Shown in pieces: positions 8,859-46,508 of a DNA stretch of 64,000 nucleotides. This stretch comes from Rhodanobacter sp. FDAARGOS 1247 (lineage in GTDB: Bacteria; Pseudomonadota; Gammaproteobacteria; Xanthomonadales; Rhodanobacteraceae). A program made the position numbers and the translations under genes. Where the stretch lies: NCBI RefSeq assembly GCF_016889805.1, contig NZ_CP069535.1, forward strand, positions 2,232,001-2,296,000. The letters are read 5' to 3'. The notes beneath the pieces were generated by a model that was given only the letters and a program-made list of their open reading frames with translations, did not search any database and was not told where the DNA came from. Within the stretch, counting starts at the first letter, position 1; every line of letters begins with the position of its first letter.

Positions 8859-11021
8859 TCACCGGCCGGTGACAACCCCGCAGAGCCTCTCCAGCAACCC
8901 GGCCTGCATGTTGCGCACCGGTTCGCCGGCAGCCGGCAGCGGGCGCAGGTATTCGCCGTCGGCCTGCAACACGGAGGCGCCCACGTTGTCGGCCAGGCAC
9001 AGCTCCAGTGTCTCGTGGATGCGCTGTTGCATCCGCTTGCCCTCGATCGGGAACGCCGTCTCCACGCGGCGATCGAGGTTGCGCTCCATCAGGTCCGCGC
9101 TGGAGAGATACAGTCGCGGCTCGCCGTCGTTGGCAAACCAGTACACGCGGCTGTGTTCGAGGAAGCGGCCGATGATCGAACGCACCCGGATGTTCTCCGA
9201 CACGCCCTCGATGCCCGGCCGCAGGCTGCAGATGCCGCGCACGATCAGGTCGACCTGCACGCCGGCCATGCCAGCCTGGTACAGCGCACGGATGACGTTC
9301 GGTTCGGTCAGCGCGTTGAGCTTGAGGATGATCCGCGCCGGCCGGCCCGCCGCGGCGTGCGCCGCTTCACCGGCGATCATTTCCAGCAGCCGGGGCTTCA
9401 GCGTGAATGGCGCATGCAGCAGCTTCTTCATGTGCAGCACGGTGCCCATGCCGGTCAGTTCGCTGAACAGCTTGTGCACGTCCTCGCACAGCGCCTCGTC
9501 GGAGGTGAGCAGGCTGTAGTCGGTATACAGGCGCGCATTGCCGCTGTGGTAGTTGCCGGTGCCCAGGTGGGCATAGCGCACCAGCTCGCTGCCCTCGCGG
9601 CGCTGGATCAGCATCATCTTCGCATGCGTCTTGATGCCGACCACGCCGTAGATCACCATCGCGCCGGCTTGCTGCAGGCGCGAGGCCAGGCTCAGGTTCG
9701 ACTCCTCGTCGAAGCGCGCGCGCAGCTCGACCACGGCAGTGACTTCCTTGCCCGAGCGGGCCGCGTCGACCAGCGCGTCGACGATTTCGGAATTCGCGTT
9801 GGTGCGGTACAGCGTCTGCTTGATCGTCAGCACCTGCGGGTCGGCCGAGGCCTGGCGCAGCAGGTCCACCACCGGCGCGAAGGATTCGTAAGGGTGCAGC
9901 AGCAGCACGTCCTGCTTGCCGATCACCTGGAACAGGTCGTCGGTGTGGCGCAATTCCTTCGGCAGCGCCGGCGTGAATGGCGGGTACTGCAGGCGCGGGT
10001 AGTTCACGTGGCTGGCGATGCGGAACAGCCGCGCCAGGTTCACCGGGCCATTCACCTCGTACAGCTCCGACTCGGTCAGGCCGAACTGCCTGAGCAGGTG
10101 CTCGGCCAGGTCCCTGGGACAGTTGTCGGCGACTTCCAGCCGCACCGCATCGCCGAAGCGGCGCGAATAGAGTTCGCCGCGCAAGGCCAGCGCCAGGTCC
10201 TCGACGTCCTCCGGGTCCAGCGTGAGGTCGGCGTTGCGGGTCAGCCGGAACTGGTAGCAGCCGAGCACGTCCATGCCGGGGAACAGCTCGTCCACGTGGG
10301 CATGGATGATCGAGGACAGCAGCACGTAGTTGTCGCCGCCCTCGCAGATCTCCGCCGGCATCTGGATCAGCCGCGGCAACACGCGCGGCGCCGGCACCAC
10401 GGCCAGGCCGGAGTCGCGGCCGAACGCATCGACACCGTCCAGCCGCACGATGAAGTTGAGGCTCTTGTTGACCAGCAACGGGAACGGATGGGTCGGGTCC
10501 AGTCCGATCGGCGTCACCAGCGGCGCCACCTCCGCCCGGAAATGGCGACGCACCCACAGCTTCTGCTTCTGCGTCCACTGCTGGCGCCGCACGATGCGGA
10601 TGCCCTGCGCGGCCAGCTCCGGCAGGATGCGCTCGTTGAGGATCGCGTACTGCCGTTCGATCTGCCGGTGCGCGATCTCGCTGATCATCAATAGCGCACG
10701 CTTCGGTGGAATGCCGTCCGGACCGATCAGCTCGTGATCCAGCGCCACCTGGCCCTTCAGCCCGGCCACCCGGATCTCGAAGAACTCGTCCATGTTGCGC
10801 GAGAAGATCAGCAGGAATTTCAGCCGTTCCAGCAGCGGCGTGCGCTCGTCCAGCGCCTGATCCAGCACGCGGATGTTGAACTGCAGCTGCGACAACTCGC
10901 GGTGGATGAACAGCCGGGGATCGCCGAGGTCCACCGCCGGCGCGATCGCCGTCGAGGCATCGTTGGCGGCCGGCGTCGCGGTGCCGGGCGGCGAGCTCTC
11001 GTGGATCAGGCGGCTGTTCAT
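8859..11021 (-). CDS. ppk1: polyphosphate kinase 1
   Basis: About 720 residues, the size of PPK1. The N-terminal domain opens with DPRLFIHRELSQLQFNIRVL, followed by the RNMDEFFEIRVAG segment. The two phospholipase-D-like C-terminal domains contain LHPYESF and KTHAKMMLI, whose histidine is the autophosphorylated residue. PPK1 makes inorganic polyphosphate from ATP at the inner membrane. The start is uncertain between 11021 and an in-frame ATG 21 nt upstream (11042); neither has a good ribosome-binding site. No exopolyphosphatase gene is adjacent, unlike E. coli ppk-ppx. Confidence 0.95.
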   Translation of the reverse strand: MNSRLIHESSPPGTATPAANDASTAIAPAVDLGDPRLFIHRELSQLQFNIRVLDQALDERTPLLERLKFLLIFSRNMDEFFEIRVAGLKGQVALDHELIGPDGIPPKRALLMISEIAHRQIERQYAILNERILPELAAQGIRIVRRQQWTQKQKLWVRRHFRAEVAPLVTPIGLDPTHPFPLLVNKSLNFIVRLDGVDAFGRDSGLAVVPAPRVLPRLIQMPAEICEGGDNYVLLSSIIHAHVDELFPGMDVLGCYQFRLTRNADLTLDPEDVEDLALALRGELYSRRFGDAVRLEVADNCPRDLAEHLLRQFGLTESELYEVNGPVNLARLFRIASHVNYPRLQYPPFTPALPKELRHTDDLFQVIGKQDVLLLHPYESFAPVVDLLRQASADPQVLTIKQTLYRTNANSEIVDALVDAARSGKEVTAVVELRARFDEESNLSLASRLQQAGAMVIYGVVGIKTHAKMMLIQRREGSELVRYAHLGTGNYHSGNARLYTDYSLLTSDEALCEDVHKLFSELTGMGTVLHMKKLLHAPFTLKPRLLEMIAGEAAHAAAGRPARIILKLNALTEPNVIRALYQAGMAGVQVDLIVRGICSLRPGIEGVSENIRVRSIIGRFLEHSRVYWFANDGEPRLYLSSADLMERNLDRRVETAFPIEGKRMQQRIHETLELCLADNVGASVLQADGEYLRPLPAAGEPVRNMQAGLLERLCGVVTGR

Positions 11022-11251
11022 GGTGACACCGGCTTGGCTCATGCAGGAATACGTCGGGACATCGTAGCGCGGCAGGGGCAAGGCCCGGGTGACGACGGCC
11101 GCGACGGGTCATCCCCGGCTCAGTCTGCCGCACGCGCTTGACGGGAAGATGACAGCCACGCGGCACGGTACCCCCGGCACATGCGGGTTCGCCGCCACTG
11201 TCCTAAGGTAGGGCCTCCCCGCGTCGTACCCCACCCAGTCAAACACCGCCC

Positions 11252-12499
11252 ATGCAGACCCGCGTCGAAAGCGCTCCGCTCTCCCCTTCCGCGATCCCCG
11301 CATCCACGACTGCCATCCCCGCCAGCGAACCCACCCAGTTCGCCGTGCTCGGCGGAATCAGCTTCGCGCACATGCTCAACGACATGATCCAGTCGCTGAT
11401 CCTGGCGATCTATCCGTTGTTGAAGGGAAGCTTCCACCTGAGCTTCGCCCAGGTCGGCCTGATCACCCTGACCTTCCAGCTCACCGCCTCGCTGCTGCAG
11501 CCGCTGGTGGGCATGGTCACCGACAAGCGACCGATGCCTTACTCGCTGCCGGTCGGCATGGGCTTCACCCTGTGCGGCCTGCTGTTGCTGGCGGTCGCGC
11601 CGAATTTCCCCGTGCTGCTGCTGGCCGTGGCCCTGGTCGGCACCGGCTCGTCGGTGTTCCATCCGGAATCGTCGCGGGTGGCGCGGATGGCTTCCGGTGG
11701 TCGACATGGCCTGGCGCAGTCGCTGTTCCAGGTCGGCGGCAACACCGGCTCGTCGCTGGGTCCGCTGCTGGCGGCGTGGATCATCGTGCCGCACGGGCGT
11801 GGCAGCGTGGCTTGGTTCTCGCTGGCCGCCCTGCTGGCCATCGTGGTGCTGCTGCAGGTGGGGCGCTGGTACGGCCGCCATCACGTGGCGCGCAGCAAGT
11901 CGCCATCGCGGCACCTGGACGTGATCGCCCTGTCGCGCAACCAGATCATAGGCGCGCTGGCAATCCTGGGCCTGCTGATCTTCTCCAAGTATTTCTACCT
12001 GGCCAGCCTCAGCAGCTATTACACCTTCTACCTGATCCACAAGTTCGGCGTGTCGGTGCAGAGCGCCCAGGTGCACCTATTCGTGTTCCTGTTCGCCGTC
12101 GCCGCCGGTTCGCTGATCGGCGGACCGGTGGGCGACCGCGTGGGGCGCAAGTGGGTGATCTGGGTGTCGATCCTGGGCGTGGCCCCGTTCACCCTGTTGC
12201 TGCCCCACGCAAACCTGATGTGGACGGGTGTGCTCACGGTGGTGATCGGCCTGATCCTGGCCTCGGCGTTCTCGGCGATCCTGGTCTACGCGCAGGAGCT
12301 GATTCCCGGGCGCGTCGGCATGATCTCGGGACTGTTTTTCGGCTTCGCCTTCGGCATGGGCGGCATCGGCGCCGCGATACTCGGTGGCCTGGCCGACGCG
12401 CACGGCATCGAATATGTCTATGGCCTGTGCGCGTATCTGCCGCTGATGGGGCTGATCACGGTGTTTCTGCCGAATATCGAGAAGCGGGTTCGCGATTGA
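11252..12499 (+). CDS. MFS transporter, fosmidomycin-resistance (Fsr) family
   Basis: A 415-residue major facilitator protein with about 12 membrane segments. The opening of TM1, ISFAHMLNDMIQSLILAIYP, and the later VGGNTGSSLGPL are typical of the Fsr group. These proton-driven inner-membrane exporters confer fosmidomycin resistance in E. coli; the natural substrate is unknown. The N-terminus carries a roughly 25-residue Ser/Pro/Ala-rich extension before TM1. The gene is divergent from ppk, with 230 bp between the starts in which I see no convincing promoter. A small hairpin (CGCTTTG/CAAAGCG, 12513-12529) follows the stop. Confidence 0.88.
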   Translation: MQTRVESAPLSPSAIPASTTAIPASEPTQFAVLGGISFAHMLNDMIQSLILAIYPLLKGSFHLSFAQVGLITLTFQLTASLLQPLVGMVTDKRPMPYSLPVGMGFTLCGLLLLAVAPNFPVLLLAVALVGTGSSVFHPESSRVARMASGGRHGLAQSLFQVGGNTGSSLGPLLAAWIIVPHGRGSVAWFSLAALLAIVVLLQVGRWYGRHHVARSKSPSRHLDVIALSRNQIIGALAILGLLIFSKYFYLASLSSYYTFYLIHKFGVSVQSAQVHLFVFLFAVAAGSLIGGPVGDRVGRKWVIWVSILGVAPFTLLLPHANLMWTGVLTVVIGLILASAFSAILVYAQELIPGRVGMISGLFFGFAFGMGGIGAAILGGLADAHGIEYVYGLCAYLPLMGLITVFLPNIEKRVRD

Positions 12500-43480: not shown

Positions 43481-43831
43481 CTAGACCCGTTGCGATCCAC
43501 GCCGATGCACAGGCTTGTCGGCACTGTCGCCAGACTCGAAGACATCCTTGACCTCTTCAGTCTCCTCAGTCTCTTCCGGAGGTGGTGGAGGTGTCGCCGG
43601 TTGCATGGGGCTGGGACCAGTACCTGGTGGGCCCGGCGGTGCAAGCAAAAGGCATTCCGGCGCCGCACCCAACAACGTCCCTAGTCGTTGTGCATCCCTG
43701 GCAAGCATTGCCAACTGCAGCTCAGGCGCCATATCGCTGGCGGACAAGGACGCAGCAAACTCCTCCGCCGAGGCCTGCGACAACTGCGCATCGCTGCCCA
43801 CCCTTTCCATGAAATCGATAACGTCCAACAT
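43481..43831 (-). CDS. probable split-borosin RiPP precursor peptide
   Basis: 116 residues, starting at an ATG with GGGGGAAG 6 nt upstream. Residues 1-56 form a helical leader, MLDVIDFMERVGSDAQL at the start and ARDAQRLGTLLGA at the end. This resembles the borosin-binding domain of Shewanella SonA as I recall it (DFxxxxGxDAQL, then AVMxxDxxxLxxLxG). The next part, ECLLLAPPGPPG (59-70), is the likely methylated core, followed by a proline run (81-85), an acidic stretch (EETEETEEV) and a basic tail. The cognate methyltransferase is the next gene upstream on the strand. A diguanylate cyclase gene follows 3 nt after the stop. It could alternatively be an uncharacterised small protein, but the pairing argues against that. 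Confidence 0.82.
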   Translation of the reverse strand: MLDVIDFMERVGSDAQLSQASAEEFAASLSASDMAPELQLAMLARDAQRLGTLLGAAPECLLLAPPGPPGTGPSPMQPATPPPPPEETEETEEVKDVFESGDSADKPVHRRGSQRV

Positions 43832-43981
43832 GATCTGCTTCCCCCTGATAATCCAGTAATCTGTGCACGCATGCATCGTTGCCATTGGCAGCAATGCGAC
43901 GCCTCAAATTATTCTTGAATCCCCAATGTGACATCTTAGCGCGGTAATTGCCCGCGATGCGAGCAGATGGCATCGGCCCTG

Positions 43982-44791
43982 TCAGGACGGTGTGGCAACC
44001 ACACGATCCAGTGCATCCAGCCGCGCCAGGATCTCGGGATCGGCCTGCATCGGACGTGCCGGCGGAATCACCACCGTTTCGGCCATGCCGATGGCGGCCC
44101 GGGGCAAGGCGCCCAGCGTGGTCCGCTCCATCCGCGGCCGGTCGATCGGCAGGGTCGCCGCGCGGTAGATGATCACTTCATGGGTCAGCGGGTAATCACG
44201 CACCAGCACGTCCACCAATACCTGGCGATAGGCGGCGTTGGTCGAGAAGCGCGCCATCGACTGGTCGCCCACCACGCCTACCTGCCACAGGATCAGGTAG
44301 GCGGTGGGGTCGATGCGGCGCTGGTAGAACAGCAGCTGGCTGGCTTCGTAGTGCTGGCAGCCATACGCACCCGGGTCGATGCCCAGATCGGCGTACAGGC
44401 AGTCCTCGGCGGACACGCCCGGCTCCATGTGCGCGCGGTAACCTTCGTCGCGGGCCAGTTCGATTGCCTTGTGCGGCACCCAGGCGAACACGCCGGGATG
44501 GCCGTAGAACACCCCGCAGACCCGCTTGCCCGCGCGCACTTCGACCAGCATGGCCTCGACCATCTGCCAGTAGGTGTTCATGCGCGAGCTGCCTTCCTGG
44601 TAGAACGTCTGCAGGCTGCGCACGTCGGCATGCATGCGCCGCAGCCACAACTCCACGATGCCATCGGACAGCGCGAAGAACACCACGTCGGCCTGTTCGA
44701 TATGGCTGCGCGCCAGCGGCCCCAGGTGCGAACCCAGGGTCATGCCCAGACCGACGCAGACCAGGCTTCCGGTCGAAGGCGTTGCTTGCAT
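43982..44791 (-). CDS. borosin-type peptide backbone N-methyltransferase (SonM-like)
   Basis: 269 residues of tetrapyrrole-methylase fold. The SAM loop is LVCVGLGMTLGSH (10-22). YGHPG (96-100), EPGVSAEDCLYADLG (123-137) and ILWQVG follow. Tyr64, Arg70 and Tyr74 reproduce the Y-x5-R-x3-Y catalytic spacing of borosin methyltransferases such as OphMA. SRSHIEQADVVF-like and SDGIVE segments match Shewanella SonM as I recall it, rather than porphyrin or cobalamin enzymes. The enzyme should iteratively methylate backbone amides of the separate precursor encoded 150 bp downstream. ATG at 44791 gives normal length; upstream sequence in frame is arginine-rich and not conserved-looking. No tetrapyrrole genes are nearby. 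Confidence 0.88.
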   Translation of the reverse strand: MQATPSTGSLVCVGLGMTLGSHLGPLARSHIEQADVVFFALSDGIVELWLRRMHADVRSLQTFYQEGSSRMNTYWQMVEAMLVEVRAGKRVCGVFYGHPGVFAWVPHKAIELARDEGYRAHMEPGVSAEDCLYADLGIDPGAYGCQHYEASQLLFYQRRIDPTAYLILWQVGVVGDQSMARFSTNAAYRQVLVDVLVRDYPLTHEVIIYRAATLPIDRPRMERTTLGALPRAAIGMAETVVIPPARPMQADPEILARLDALDRVVATPS

Positions 44792-45035: not shown

Positions 45036-45632
45036 CTAACGCAGCGACCAGTCCGCCAGCACCTGATAGTCCTGCTGGCCCATGACGCTGTGGATCAGCC
45101 CGACCCGGGTGACCGGCCAGACCAACGACTCGACCAGTGCCGTTTCCGGCAGCATGCCCTGGCCATAGGCGAGCGTGACGTGCGGCGTGAAGCTGCGCTC
45201 GACGTGCCGCCCCTGCCCGGCCAGGACGAGGGCGTGGCGCAAGTCCTGCCACAACTGCTGCAACGGCTCGGGCACGTGGATGCTGCGCAGGACGCAGGGC
45301 GGCTGCCGGCCGCGGAAGCTGGTGGCGTGATCGAGCGCCCATTCGAACGCGGGCACGCCGACGAGCCGGCCTGCCGCCGCCATGGCGGCATCGACCAGGT
45401 CCTGCCGCAGCATCGGGTGGTCGCCCAGGAAATGCAGCGTGGCGTGGTAGCGCGCCGGATTCACCCAGCGTGCGCGCAGGCCGGGATGGTCGGCCTTGAG
45501 GGATGCCGCGACCTGCGCCAGGCGCGTGCGGGTCGCGGCGTCCGGCAGCAGCGCCAGGAACAGCCGGTGGACTTCGGCAGGACGCGCATCGACAGCACCA
45601 AGCAGGTCGAGCTGCGGATGATCAGCGGGCAC
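45036..45632 (-). CDS. thpR: RNA 2',3'-cyclic phosphodiesterase (LigT/ThpR)
   Basis: About 198 residues from a GTG at 45632. It opens HRLFLALLPDAATR and carries both family motifs, HATLHF and HVTLAY, which hold the two catalytic histidines. The enzyme opens 2',3'-cyclic phosphates on RNA. The start lies 18 nt after the DUF3014 gene on the same strand. The 5' end is uncertain because the GTG lacks a good ribosome-binding site. A second LigT-family gene is present at 59.8 kb. Confidence 0.87.
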   Translation of the reverse strand: MPADHPQLDLLGAVDARPAEVHRLFLALLPDAATRTRLAQVAASLKADHPGLRARWVNPARYHATLHFLGDHPMLRQDLVDAAMAAAGRLVGVPAFEWALDHATSFRGRQPPCVLRSIHVPEPLQQLWQDLRHALVLAGQGRHVERSFTPHVTLAYGQGMLPETALVESLVWPVTRVGLIHSVMGQQDYQVLADWSLR

Positions 45633-45650: not shown

Positions 45651-46508
45651 TCATGGTTGCCTTCCGCCGACCGCCGCCGGCGTGGCCGGCAAATGCTGCC
45701 CGATCAGCCCGGCGCGGATCGCACGCAGTTTCGCCTTGATCCTGGCCTCGTTGGCGGAGCCGACGCGCAGCAGCAGCTTCTGTCCGGTCGAGAGCGACTC
45801 CAGTGCGGGATCGGCATGGACGTAGAACGTCTTCGAGCGCACCACCGCGGGCGGTTGGGCCGGTTCCGGCGCCGCCAGCAGGTCGTCGATCACCACGATC
45901 AGGCGATCGTTGAAATAGCCCTTCGGATAGCCCAGCTGCCGGTAGGCCTGCTGGAACAGCGGATAGGCATGCACGTACCAGGCCACCAGCGCCTGCGGGT
46001 CGGTCGCGTCCACGACCTGCATGTAGGGCGCGTAGCGGGCGCTGTTGCCGGCGCCGATCACCGTCGCGCCGTCGACCTCGTCGACCGCAAACGCGCCTTT
46101 GGGCACATGCACCGGCAGCGTGAACGTACCCAGCCCGTCGTGCCGGGGCAGCGCGTCGATGGTGGTCACGATGCGGGTGATCAGTTGCTGGCTCACCAGC
46201 AGCGACGACAGGTCGCTGCCGCCGGCCAGTGCAGCCAGTGCCGAAGCCACGCCGGCATCGCTGTCATCCAGTGCGGGCAGCGCGGCGGTCGAGGCGGCTG
46301 CCGGACCGGCCTGTGCCTGTTCGATCGGATGCTGGATCGGCGTGCTGGCCGGAGCAGTTCCGGCCGACGCCGAAGCGGCCGGCGTGGTCGGTTCCGGTGC
46401 GCCCGGGTGCATGGCCTTGCGCGCCATATAGATGCCTCCCGCCACGATGGCCAGGACCACGACCACCGCCCCGATCCAGCTGCCTGTCGATGCTTGTTGC
46501 TTGCCCAC
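45651..46508 (-). CDS. DUF3014 family membrane-anchored protein
   Basis: 285 residues with a GTG start preceded by GGGAGAG. One N-terminal membrane helix (about 12-29) is followed by an Ala/Pro/Thr-rich linker and a C-terminal domain matching DUF3014 (YAPYMQVVDATDPQALVAWY, FNDRLIVVIDDLLAAP). The function is unknown, probably periplasmic. It is upstream of thpR with an 18-nt gap. The 285 bp before the next plus-strand gene hold only a 7-bp-stem hairpin near 46697-46714. Confidence 0.78.
   Translation of the reverse strand: MGKQQASTGSWIGAVVVVLAIVAGGIYMARKAMHPGAPEPTTPAASASAGTAPASTPIQHPIEQAQAGPAAASTAALPALDDSDAGVASALAALAGGSDLSSLLVSQQLITRIVTTIDALPRHDGLGTFTLPVHVPKGAFAVDEVDGATVIGAGNSARYAPYMQVVDATDPQALVAWYVHAYPLFQQAYRQLGYPKGYFNDRLIVVIDDLLAAPEPAQPPAVVRSKTFYVHADPALESLSTGQKLLLRVGSANEARIKAKLRAIRAGLIGQHLPATPAAVGGRQP

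Follow-up and report, generated by a model that had tools for sequence, protein, structure and literature searches.

The window analysed in this study, a stretch of 64,000 nt from the soil bacterium Rhodanobacter sp. FDAARGOS 1247, harbours a locus which, judged from its sequence, is a three-gene module in which a borosin-type methyltransferase (MT) and its separate precursor peptide are accompanied by a putative membrane diguanylate cyclase with a TPR sensor. The MT and the precursor almost certainly form a borosin pair, and it is very likely that they constitute, together with the TPR receptor, a dedicated functional module. That this is a peptide-signal module, in which the peptide acts as a ligand and thereby sets c-di-GMP synthesis, is the most likely reading, with roughly even chances of being correct. 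The following features were assigned:

44791-43982, minus strand: SonM-type borosin alpha-N-methyltransferase, 269 aa, with Y64, R70 and Y74 (PDB SonM 7ltc, E=1e-76)
43840-43846, minus strand: AGGGGGA, resembling a Shine-Dalgarno sequence, ahead of the precursor ATG (sequence)
43831-43481, minus strand: borosin precursor, 116 aa, with a leader consisting of a borosin-binding domain (BBD), core and follower (profile to SonA, 6.8e-6; five-helix model)
43831-43667, minus strand: BBD, residues 1-55, with predicted helices 2-13, 15-18, 22-31, 36-43 and 47-53
43657-43634, minus strand: candidate core, residues 59-66 (ECLLLAPP), from the sequence and a pattern recurrent in related precursors; the site is putative
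43621-43484, minus strand: Pro-rich, then acidic follower, residues 71-116, without predicted secondary structure
43477-41654, minus strand: predicted membrane diguanylate cyclase receptor, 607 aa (GGDEF Pfam 2.7e-41; mean pLDDT 85.5)
43375-42497, minus strand: predicted periplasmic TPR-type superhelix, residues 35-327, with two cysteines (C195, C225) that do not vary among 32 aligned receptors
42283-42230, minus strand: membrane-spanning segment at approximately residues 399-416, embedded in an uninterrupted helix 331-430 (sequence; model)
42190-41720, minus strand: GGDEF domain, residues 430-586, with GGEEF at 508-512 and the I-site RSTD at 499-502 (Pfam, alignment, model)

The three genes are co-directional, with 150 nt between the MT stop and the precursor ATG and only 3 nt between the precursor stop and the ATG of the receptor gene. 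The original prediction had described a split borosin locus in a Xanthomonadales-type host. Both of its open reading frames lie on the minus strand at the coordinates that it gave, and the host is indeed a Rhodanobacter, with Rhodanobacter spathiphylli B39 being the nearest named record (97% MT identity). The MT/precursor pair as such is supported by the present analysis, but the description was incomplete, as it did not include the TPR-GGDEF gene that follows on the same strand after 3 nt. Upstream of the MT and on the same strand lie genes for a LigT/2'-5' RNA ligase family protein (45036-45632) and a DUF3014 protein (45651-46508), and each of these families occurs in 11 of the mapped Rhodanobacteraceae windows.

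In a search against PDB sequences, the MT matched SonM over nearly its full length, with 125 of 251 aligned residues being identical (50%), and OphMA chains with an E-value of about 1e-51; the Pfam family TP_methylase was recognised at 2.3e-16. Matches to NCBIfam models of tetrapyrrole enzymes were weak (0.002 for the best cobalamin model, 1.4e-8 for YabN) and all far under the cut-offs, and the protein thereby sides with SonM and OphMA and not with the cobalamin or siroheme enzymes, a grouping with the latter having been named in advance as evidence against a borosin MT. All three predicted residues (Tyr64, Arg70, Tyr74) were found; they align with Y58, R67 and Y71 of SonM and are at least 90% conserved across 11 aligned MTs. 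The Y-x5-R-x3-Y motif which had been formulated for them is likewise found, but it is three residues shorter than the Y-x8-R-x3-Y of SonM; the x5 spacing is that of OphMA. Among the three TP_methylase matches in the 3.92-Mb genome (G000), only the one at the window locus was matched by the MT sequence with an E-value of 1e-5 or lower. According to the description of SonM in PMC8429565, mutants in Y58, R67 and Y71 lose activity.

For the precursor, a single-sequence phmmer search gave a weak result, with SonA at E=0.37 behind a low-complexity match at 0.088. A profile built from ten Rhodanobacteraceae precursors reached SonA at 6.8e-6, the sole significant PDB chain, and the five-helix BBD is also backed by another profile, which itself contains SonA-like rows. 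The AlphaFold model of the precursor exhibits five helices within residues 2-53 and a tail without structure; its pLDDT is 86-92 in residues 1-50. Of the 22 rows of a Foldseek search with this model, 18 were SonA chains, with target-based TM values reaching 0.77 and every E above 1. A BBD of five helices is also described for SonA in PMC8429565. The idea that the first 56 residues are SonA-like is thus borne out by the family profile, the model and the fold ranking, and the lack of any BBD match, which would have spoken against it, was not observed. Furthermore, a BBD match adjoins every split MT in the listed Rhodanobacteraceae windows.

After its BBD, the window precursor continues with GAAPECLLLAPPGPPG. 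As prolines 65, 66, 68 and 69 offer no backbone NH, methylation in the core would likely be confined to C60-A64. Many relatives contain at this position a short hydrophobic, often Cys-bearing run followed by proline and acidic residues, for example NVCCMLMPSKEEDD or DVVCVLFPAEEEE; a second group of Rhodanobacteraceae has PGHEE instead, and SonA-like cores occur in family f187. With loose patterns, which may overlap, 60 of 93 precursors paired with a receptor were assigned to the first type (hydrophobic/Cys-Pro-acidic) and 33 to the second. The acidic follower, which had been considered unusually long, turned out to be ordinary in this family: the median D/E content of the 93 receptor-paired precursors is 37%, and their tails after the BBD match comprise 13-83 residues (median 40; 58 in the window precursor). 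A run of five prolines was found in five of the 93, namely in the window precursor, in three close relatives and in L071.

Three close relatives of the window locus (L034, L035, L036) each encode two tandem precursors, and the window encodes one. The latter resembles precursor 1 of these relatives at its upstream end and precursor 2 in its body and tail, as if recombination between tandem copies had removed the first. L076 resembles a similar fusion of precursors with the switch near PPGPPG, and in a precursor of L048 (10335-10731) part of a BBD occurs for a second time, as does a core-like segment (LCCAFMAPETEDE ... HFCCMFFADDGDEE).

The 607-aa protein encoded downstream of the precursor begins, by sequence and model, with a signal-like helix or signal peptide ahead of the TPR array. 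No Pfam TPR match was obtained for this protein, though such matches were obtained for its relatives. GGDEF chains head both structure-search lists for the receptor model. Rap proteins are also among the structure matches, but rows of human APC score equally high; as TPR arrays resemble one another, the Rap rows are no proof of peptide binding. A hydrophobic segment between the TPR part and the GGDEF domain is present in all 121 receptor ORFs of the TPR-GGDEF type, an N-terminal hydrophobic segment in 114 and an I-site in 94, and the active-site motif reads GGEEF in 115, GGDEF in five and neither in one. By these motifs the receptors look like active cyclases.

The conserved linkage of MT and receptor is apparent from the genomic windows. 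Altogether 117 MT ORFs were counted, 87 of them with a GGDEF receptor. After a fragment beside a fused protein (L127; 47.5 bits) had been set aside, 116 MT genes remained, of which 101 have a TPR receptor on the same strand within 3 kb (86 GGDEF, 13 histidine kinase, two TPR-only). The remaining 15 comprise one with a receptor on the opposite strand, six that are part of a fused TPR-GGDEF-MT protein and eight without any receptor. Counted per window (n=110), this corresponds to 97 with a separate receptor, five with a fused one and eight with none, with closely related genomes not being independent in these counts. In one of the two TPR-only cases (L174) the GGDEF part is located in the next same-strand ORF, and L175, with merely a 98-aa GGDEF piece nearby, was scored as having none. 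The receptor link extends over ten families (f1, f140, f176, f187, f188, f193, f194, f195, f196, f200); no receptor was found in seven families represented by one window each (f18, f42, f104, f130, f153, f162, f198). The receptor-less MTs are L130, L132-L136, L175 and L205, of which L132-L136 are the remotest of their match list (29-38% identity); L130 shows 43% identity, and L175 is, with 59%, not remote. Five TPR-sensor ORFs in MT-bearing windows are separated from an MT by over 4 kb, and three of these (L043, L044, L052) directly follow a precursor of their own in the same arrays. The output domain of the receptors varies (GGDEF, hybrid histidine kinase) and the TPR part is constant.

The windows were chosen from match lists and cover 50 of the 162 MT-bearing Rhodanobacteraceae genomes, the named records L077 and L081-L084, and genomes from three other MT match lists (10 of 10, two of them among the 50; 33 of 70, counting G580; 3 of 4). 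Repeats (L074, L075, L078, L079, L085), the short L076 and all loci below 7 kb were dropped from the linkage count. At the level of whole genomes, two match lists for 233 Rhodanobacteraceae, which report presence in a genome and not adjacency, place the MT in 162 and the sensor part of the receptor in 158: 157 genomes contain both, five only the MT, one only the sensor (G081, 86% complete) and 70 neither. As the five MT-only genomes carry the fused form, all 162 MT-bearing genomes possess a TPR-sensor protein, either separate or fused. The recurrence of the trio in many related bacteria suggests that these peptides may be signals.

In the mechanism that we propose, the MT would dock the BBD of the precursor and, in a SonM/SonA-like manner, methylate the short hydrophobic core (ECLLLA) at backbone amides ahead of the first prolines in the host cell. 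The core would then be released and reach the periplasm via a route which is not encoded in the cluster, and it might be captured there by the TPR superhelix of its dedicated receptor, the membrane diguanylate cyclase whose gene follows 3 nt downstream. Occupancy of the TPR part would alter, in one direction or the other, the synthesis of c-di-GMP by the cytoplasmic GGEEF domain. The chances that the peptide is indeed the ligand of the TPR receptor appear about equal either way. Neither an exporter nor a leader peptidase was found as a constant neighbour in the mapped Rhodanobacteraceae windows (those of other orders were scanned for MT, BBD, TPR, GGDEF and kinase alone); with the precursor being cytoplasmic and the sensor periplasmic, this counts against the mechanism. 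The eight MT genes lacking a receptor and the four windows (L086, L087, L100, L102) in which a receptor but neither precursor nor MT was detected count against it as well.

The arrangement of the genes bears on which of the three proteins belong together most closely. The distance from precursor stop to receptor start, measurable in 91 of 93 pairs, has a median of 8 nt and does not exceed 30 nt in 82 of these 91. One MT is common to two precursor-receptor pairs in ten windows (L041, L042, L043, L044, L045, L049, L052, L053, L082, L093), and the whole triad is doubled in L071 and L073. Six windows (L089, L094, L096, L098, L104, L105) include a precursor-receptor pair with no MT within the fetched 16-19 kb. 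Four of the six genomes contain an MT elsewhere, which is located about 1.35 Mb from the pair on a single 5.36-Mb contig in G056, about 150 kb away in G088 and on another contig in G085 and G050; of the other two, G146 has one MT match and G081 none. The tight gaps, the shared MTs and the pairs lacking an MT favour a functional pairing of precursor and receptor, for which the MT would be a shared maturation enzyme.

The same arrangements argue against the MT itself being the output of the receptor. According to this decidedly improbable explanation, the TPR part senses a cue, and dimerisation of the GGDEF domain or c-di-GMP controls whether the precursor is methylated. It would account for the fused proteins, which are found in a single genus (g5; L123-L127) that comprises the five MT-only genomes and in which six MT domains are fused C-terminally to TPR, membrane helix and GGDEF (ORFs of 829-893 residues from stop to stop; Pfam on the L123 protein). 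Upstream of these fused ORFs lies a gene for a BBD precursor whose core differs, for example TNSTIIAYDK. As they join the MT, and not the precursor, to the receptor, they also fit a control of the MT, and the description of SonM as an active homodimer (PMC8429565) points in the same direction. Besides the six windows without an MT and the ten with one MT for two pairs, the replacement of GGDEF by histidine-kinase outputs in some loci speaks against it.

It is also conceivable, albeit rather unlikely, that the peptide is an ordinary secreted natural product acting on other cells, and that the TPR cyclase ties its production to lifestyle via an unrelated cue. Genes for M28 and M14 peptidases, each present in 11 of the mapped Rhodanobacteraceae windows, would suit such a product, as would the existence of receptors for which no precursor was detected (L086, L087, L100, L102; no MT was detected in these four windows either), and the sections consulted in PMC8429565 assign the product of SonA no biological function. 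However, the mapped windows contain no constant exporter or immunity gene, and the receptor gene is closely linked to that of the precursor and accompanies it even where no MT is nearby. One of these receptors without precursor is encoded in the same genome as the window locus, about 39 kb from it and outside the window (L086 8734-10515; G000:C1 about 2314734-2316515): its sensor is 36% identical to that of the window receptor, and neither a precursor nor an MT was detected beside it. A similar orphan receptor (L087) is present in G190.

The co-variation of cores and receptors lends modest support to the reading of the peptide as a ligand of the TPR part. With the MT distance controlled, the partial rank correlation between core distance and TPR distance is 0.19, versus 0.07 for the GGDEF distance (n=87); among the 67 pairs from the Rhodanobacteraceae windows and the Steroidobacter-labelled L084, the values are 0.36 and 0.15. 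A permutation test gave 0 of 500. These correlations are small to modest, and faster evolution of the TPR part or shared ancestry could yield them. They nevertheless count, as a modest effect, against the whole precursor being a small regulatory protein, the methylated tail of which alters binding on the cytoplasmic side of the receptor without any free peptide, since the core co-varies best with the predicted periplasmic TPR part and not with GGDEF. Although the nearly contiguous genes of precursor and receptor, the widespread acidic tails and the lack of a constant peptidase in the mapped clusters would agree with such a regulatory protein, we regard it as very unlikely.

Compared with known systems, the window locus is most similar to the type IV split borosin SonM/SonA of Shewanella oneidensis as described in PMC8429565, with which it shares the MT including the catalytic Tyr/Arg/Tyr and a separate precursor whose five-helix BBD is followed by a short C-terminal core. 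It differs from SonM/SonA in its core ECLLLAPPGPPG with the Pro-rich acidic follower and in the gene order MT, precursor, TPR-GGDEF; a TPR-GGDEF gene is also present in the SonA-like loci of f187 (L172, L176, L177, L178). A GGDEF-bearing borosin architecture is drawn in Figure 1 of PMC11395268 and may, by comparison with its legend, be the fused form of genus g5, so that the fusion is probably not new; this legend names no TPR receptor, signalling role or separate receptor gene. A literature search, which did not include three papers defining or surveying borosin types, yielded no paper joining borosins and a diguanylate cyclase. The MT and the precursor add new members to an established class, and what appears to be new is the rule that the precursor is accompanied by a TPR receptor, together with the two outputs of this receptor and the independence of the pairing from the MT.

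RRNPP receptors such as RapF-Phr are cytoplasmic regulators. Unlike these, the window receptor has a signal peptide and a membrane helix as well as a GGDEF domain (a kinase in relatives), and membership in the RRNPP group as a cytoplasmic TPR regulator was rejected, as the N-terminal signal-like helix and the membrane segment precede GGDEF. Proteobacterial split borosins might be peptide pheromones, each precursor having a transmembrane TPR receptor of its own with a cyclase or histidine kinase as output, and thus be a Gram-negative counterpart of RRNPP systems which uses backbone-N-methylated peptides and in which one genus has fused receptor, cyclase and methyltransferase; the case for this generalisation is evenly balanced. 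To our knowledge, only few dedicated peptide pheromones exist in Gram-negative bacteria. If true, the idea would mean one more system of peptide signalling in this group and would explain why some genomes have several precursor-receptor pairs for one methyltransferase. In any case, the receptor beside the precursor offers a handle on borosin function, as a binding partner, through a c-di-GMP read-out and by deletion tests in laboratory strains. A candidate model for leader removal is Shewasin A, which, as Lee et al. reportedly found in 2024, processes a Shewanella borosin precursor. A search of the genome for the pepsin-like family PF00026 gave no match, but neither did the control, so that this result does not amount to an absence of the family.

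Some related loci contain additional genes or deviating forms. A GNAT acetyltransferase gene, possibly encoding a tailoring enzyme, lies inside the borosin cluster in two families, namely in the interval between MT and precursor (L040, L043, L048), before the second pair (L042, L045) or between two MTs (L190). L209 encodes three TPR proteins of 362-375 aa with signal-peptide-like N termini beside MT and precursor (8886-12407), in which no membrane or output domain was recognised by sequence (Pfam run on one of them). A 643-aa ORF of L205 (584-2513), in which the MT domain occupies the middle and a segment resembling a BBD was seen by eye near the C terminus, appears to be a fused borosin that lacks a TPR neighbour. 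In one order, some MT copies exhibit internal stop codons (G688, G781, G802, G832, G861), and stop-free copies are present in the same genomes.
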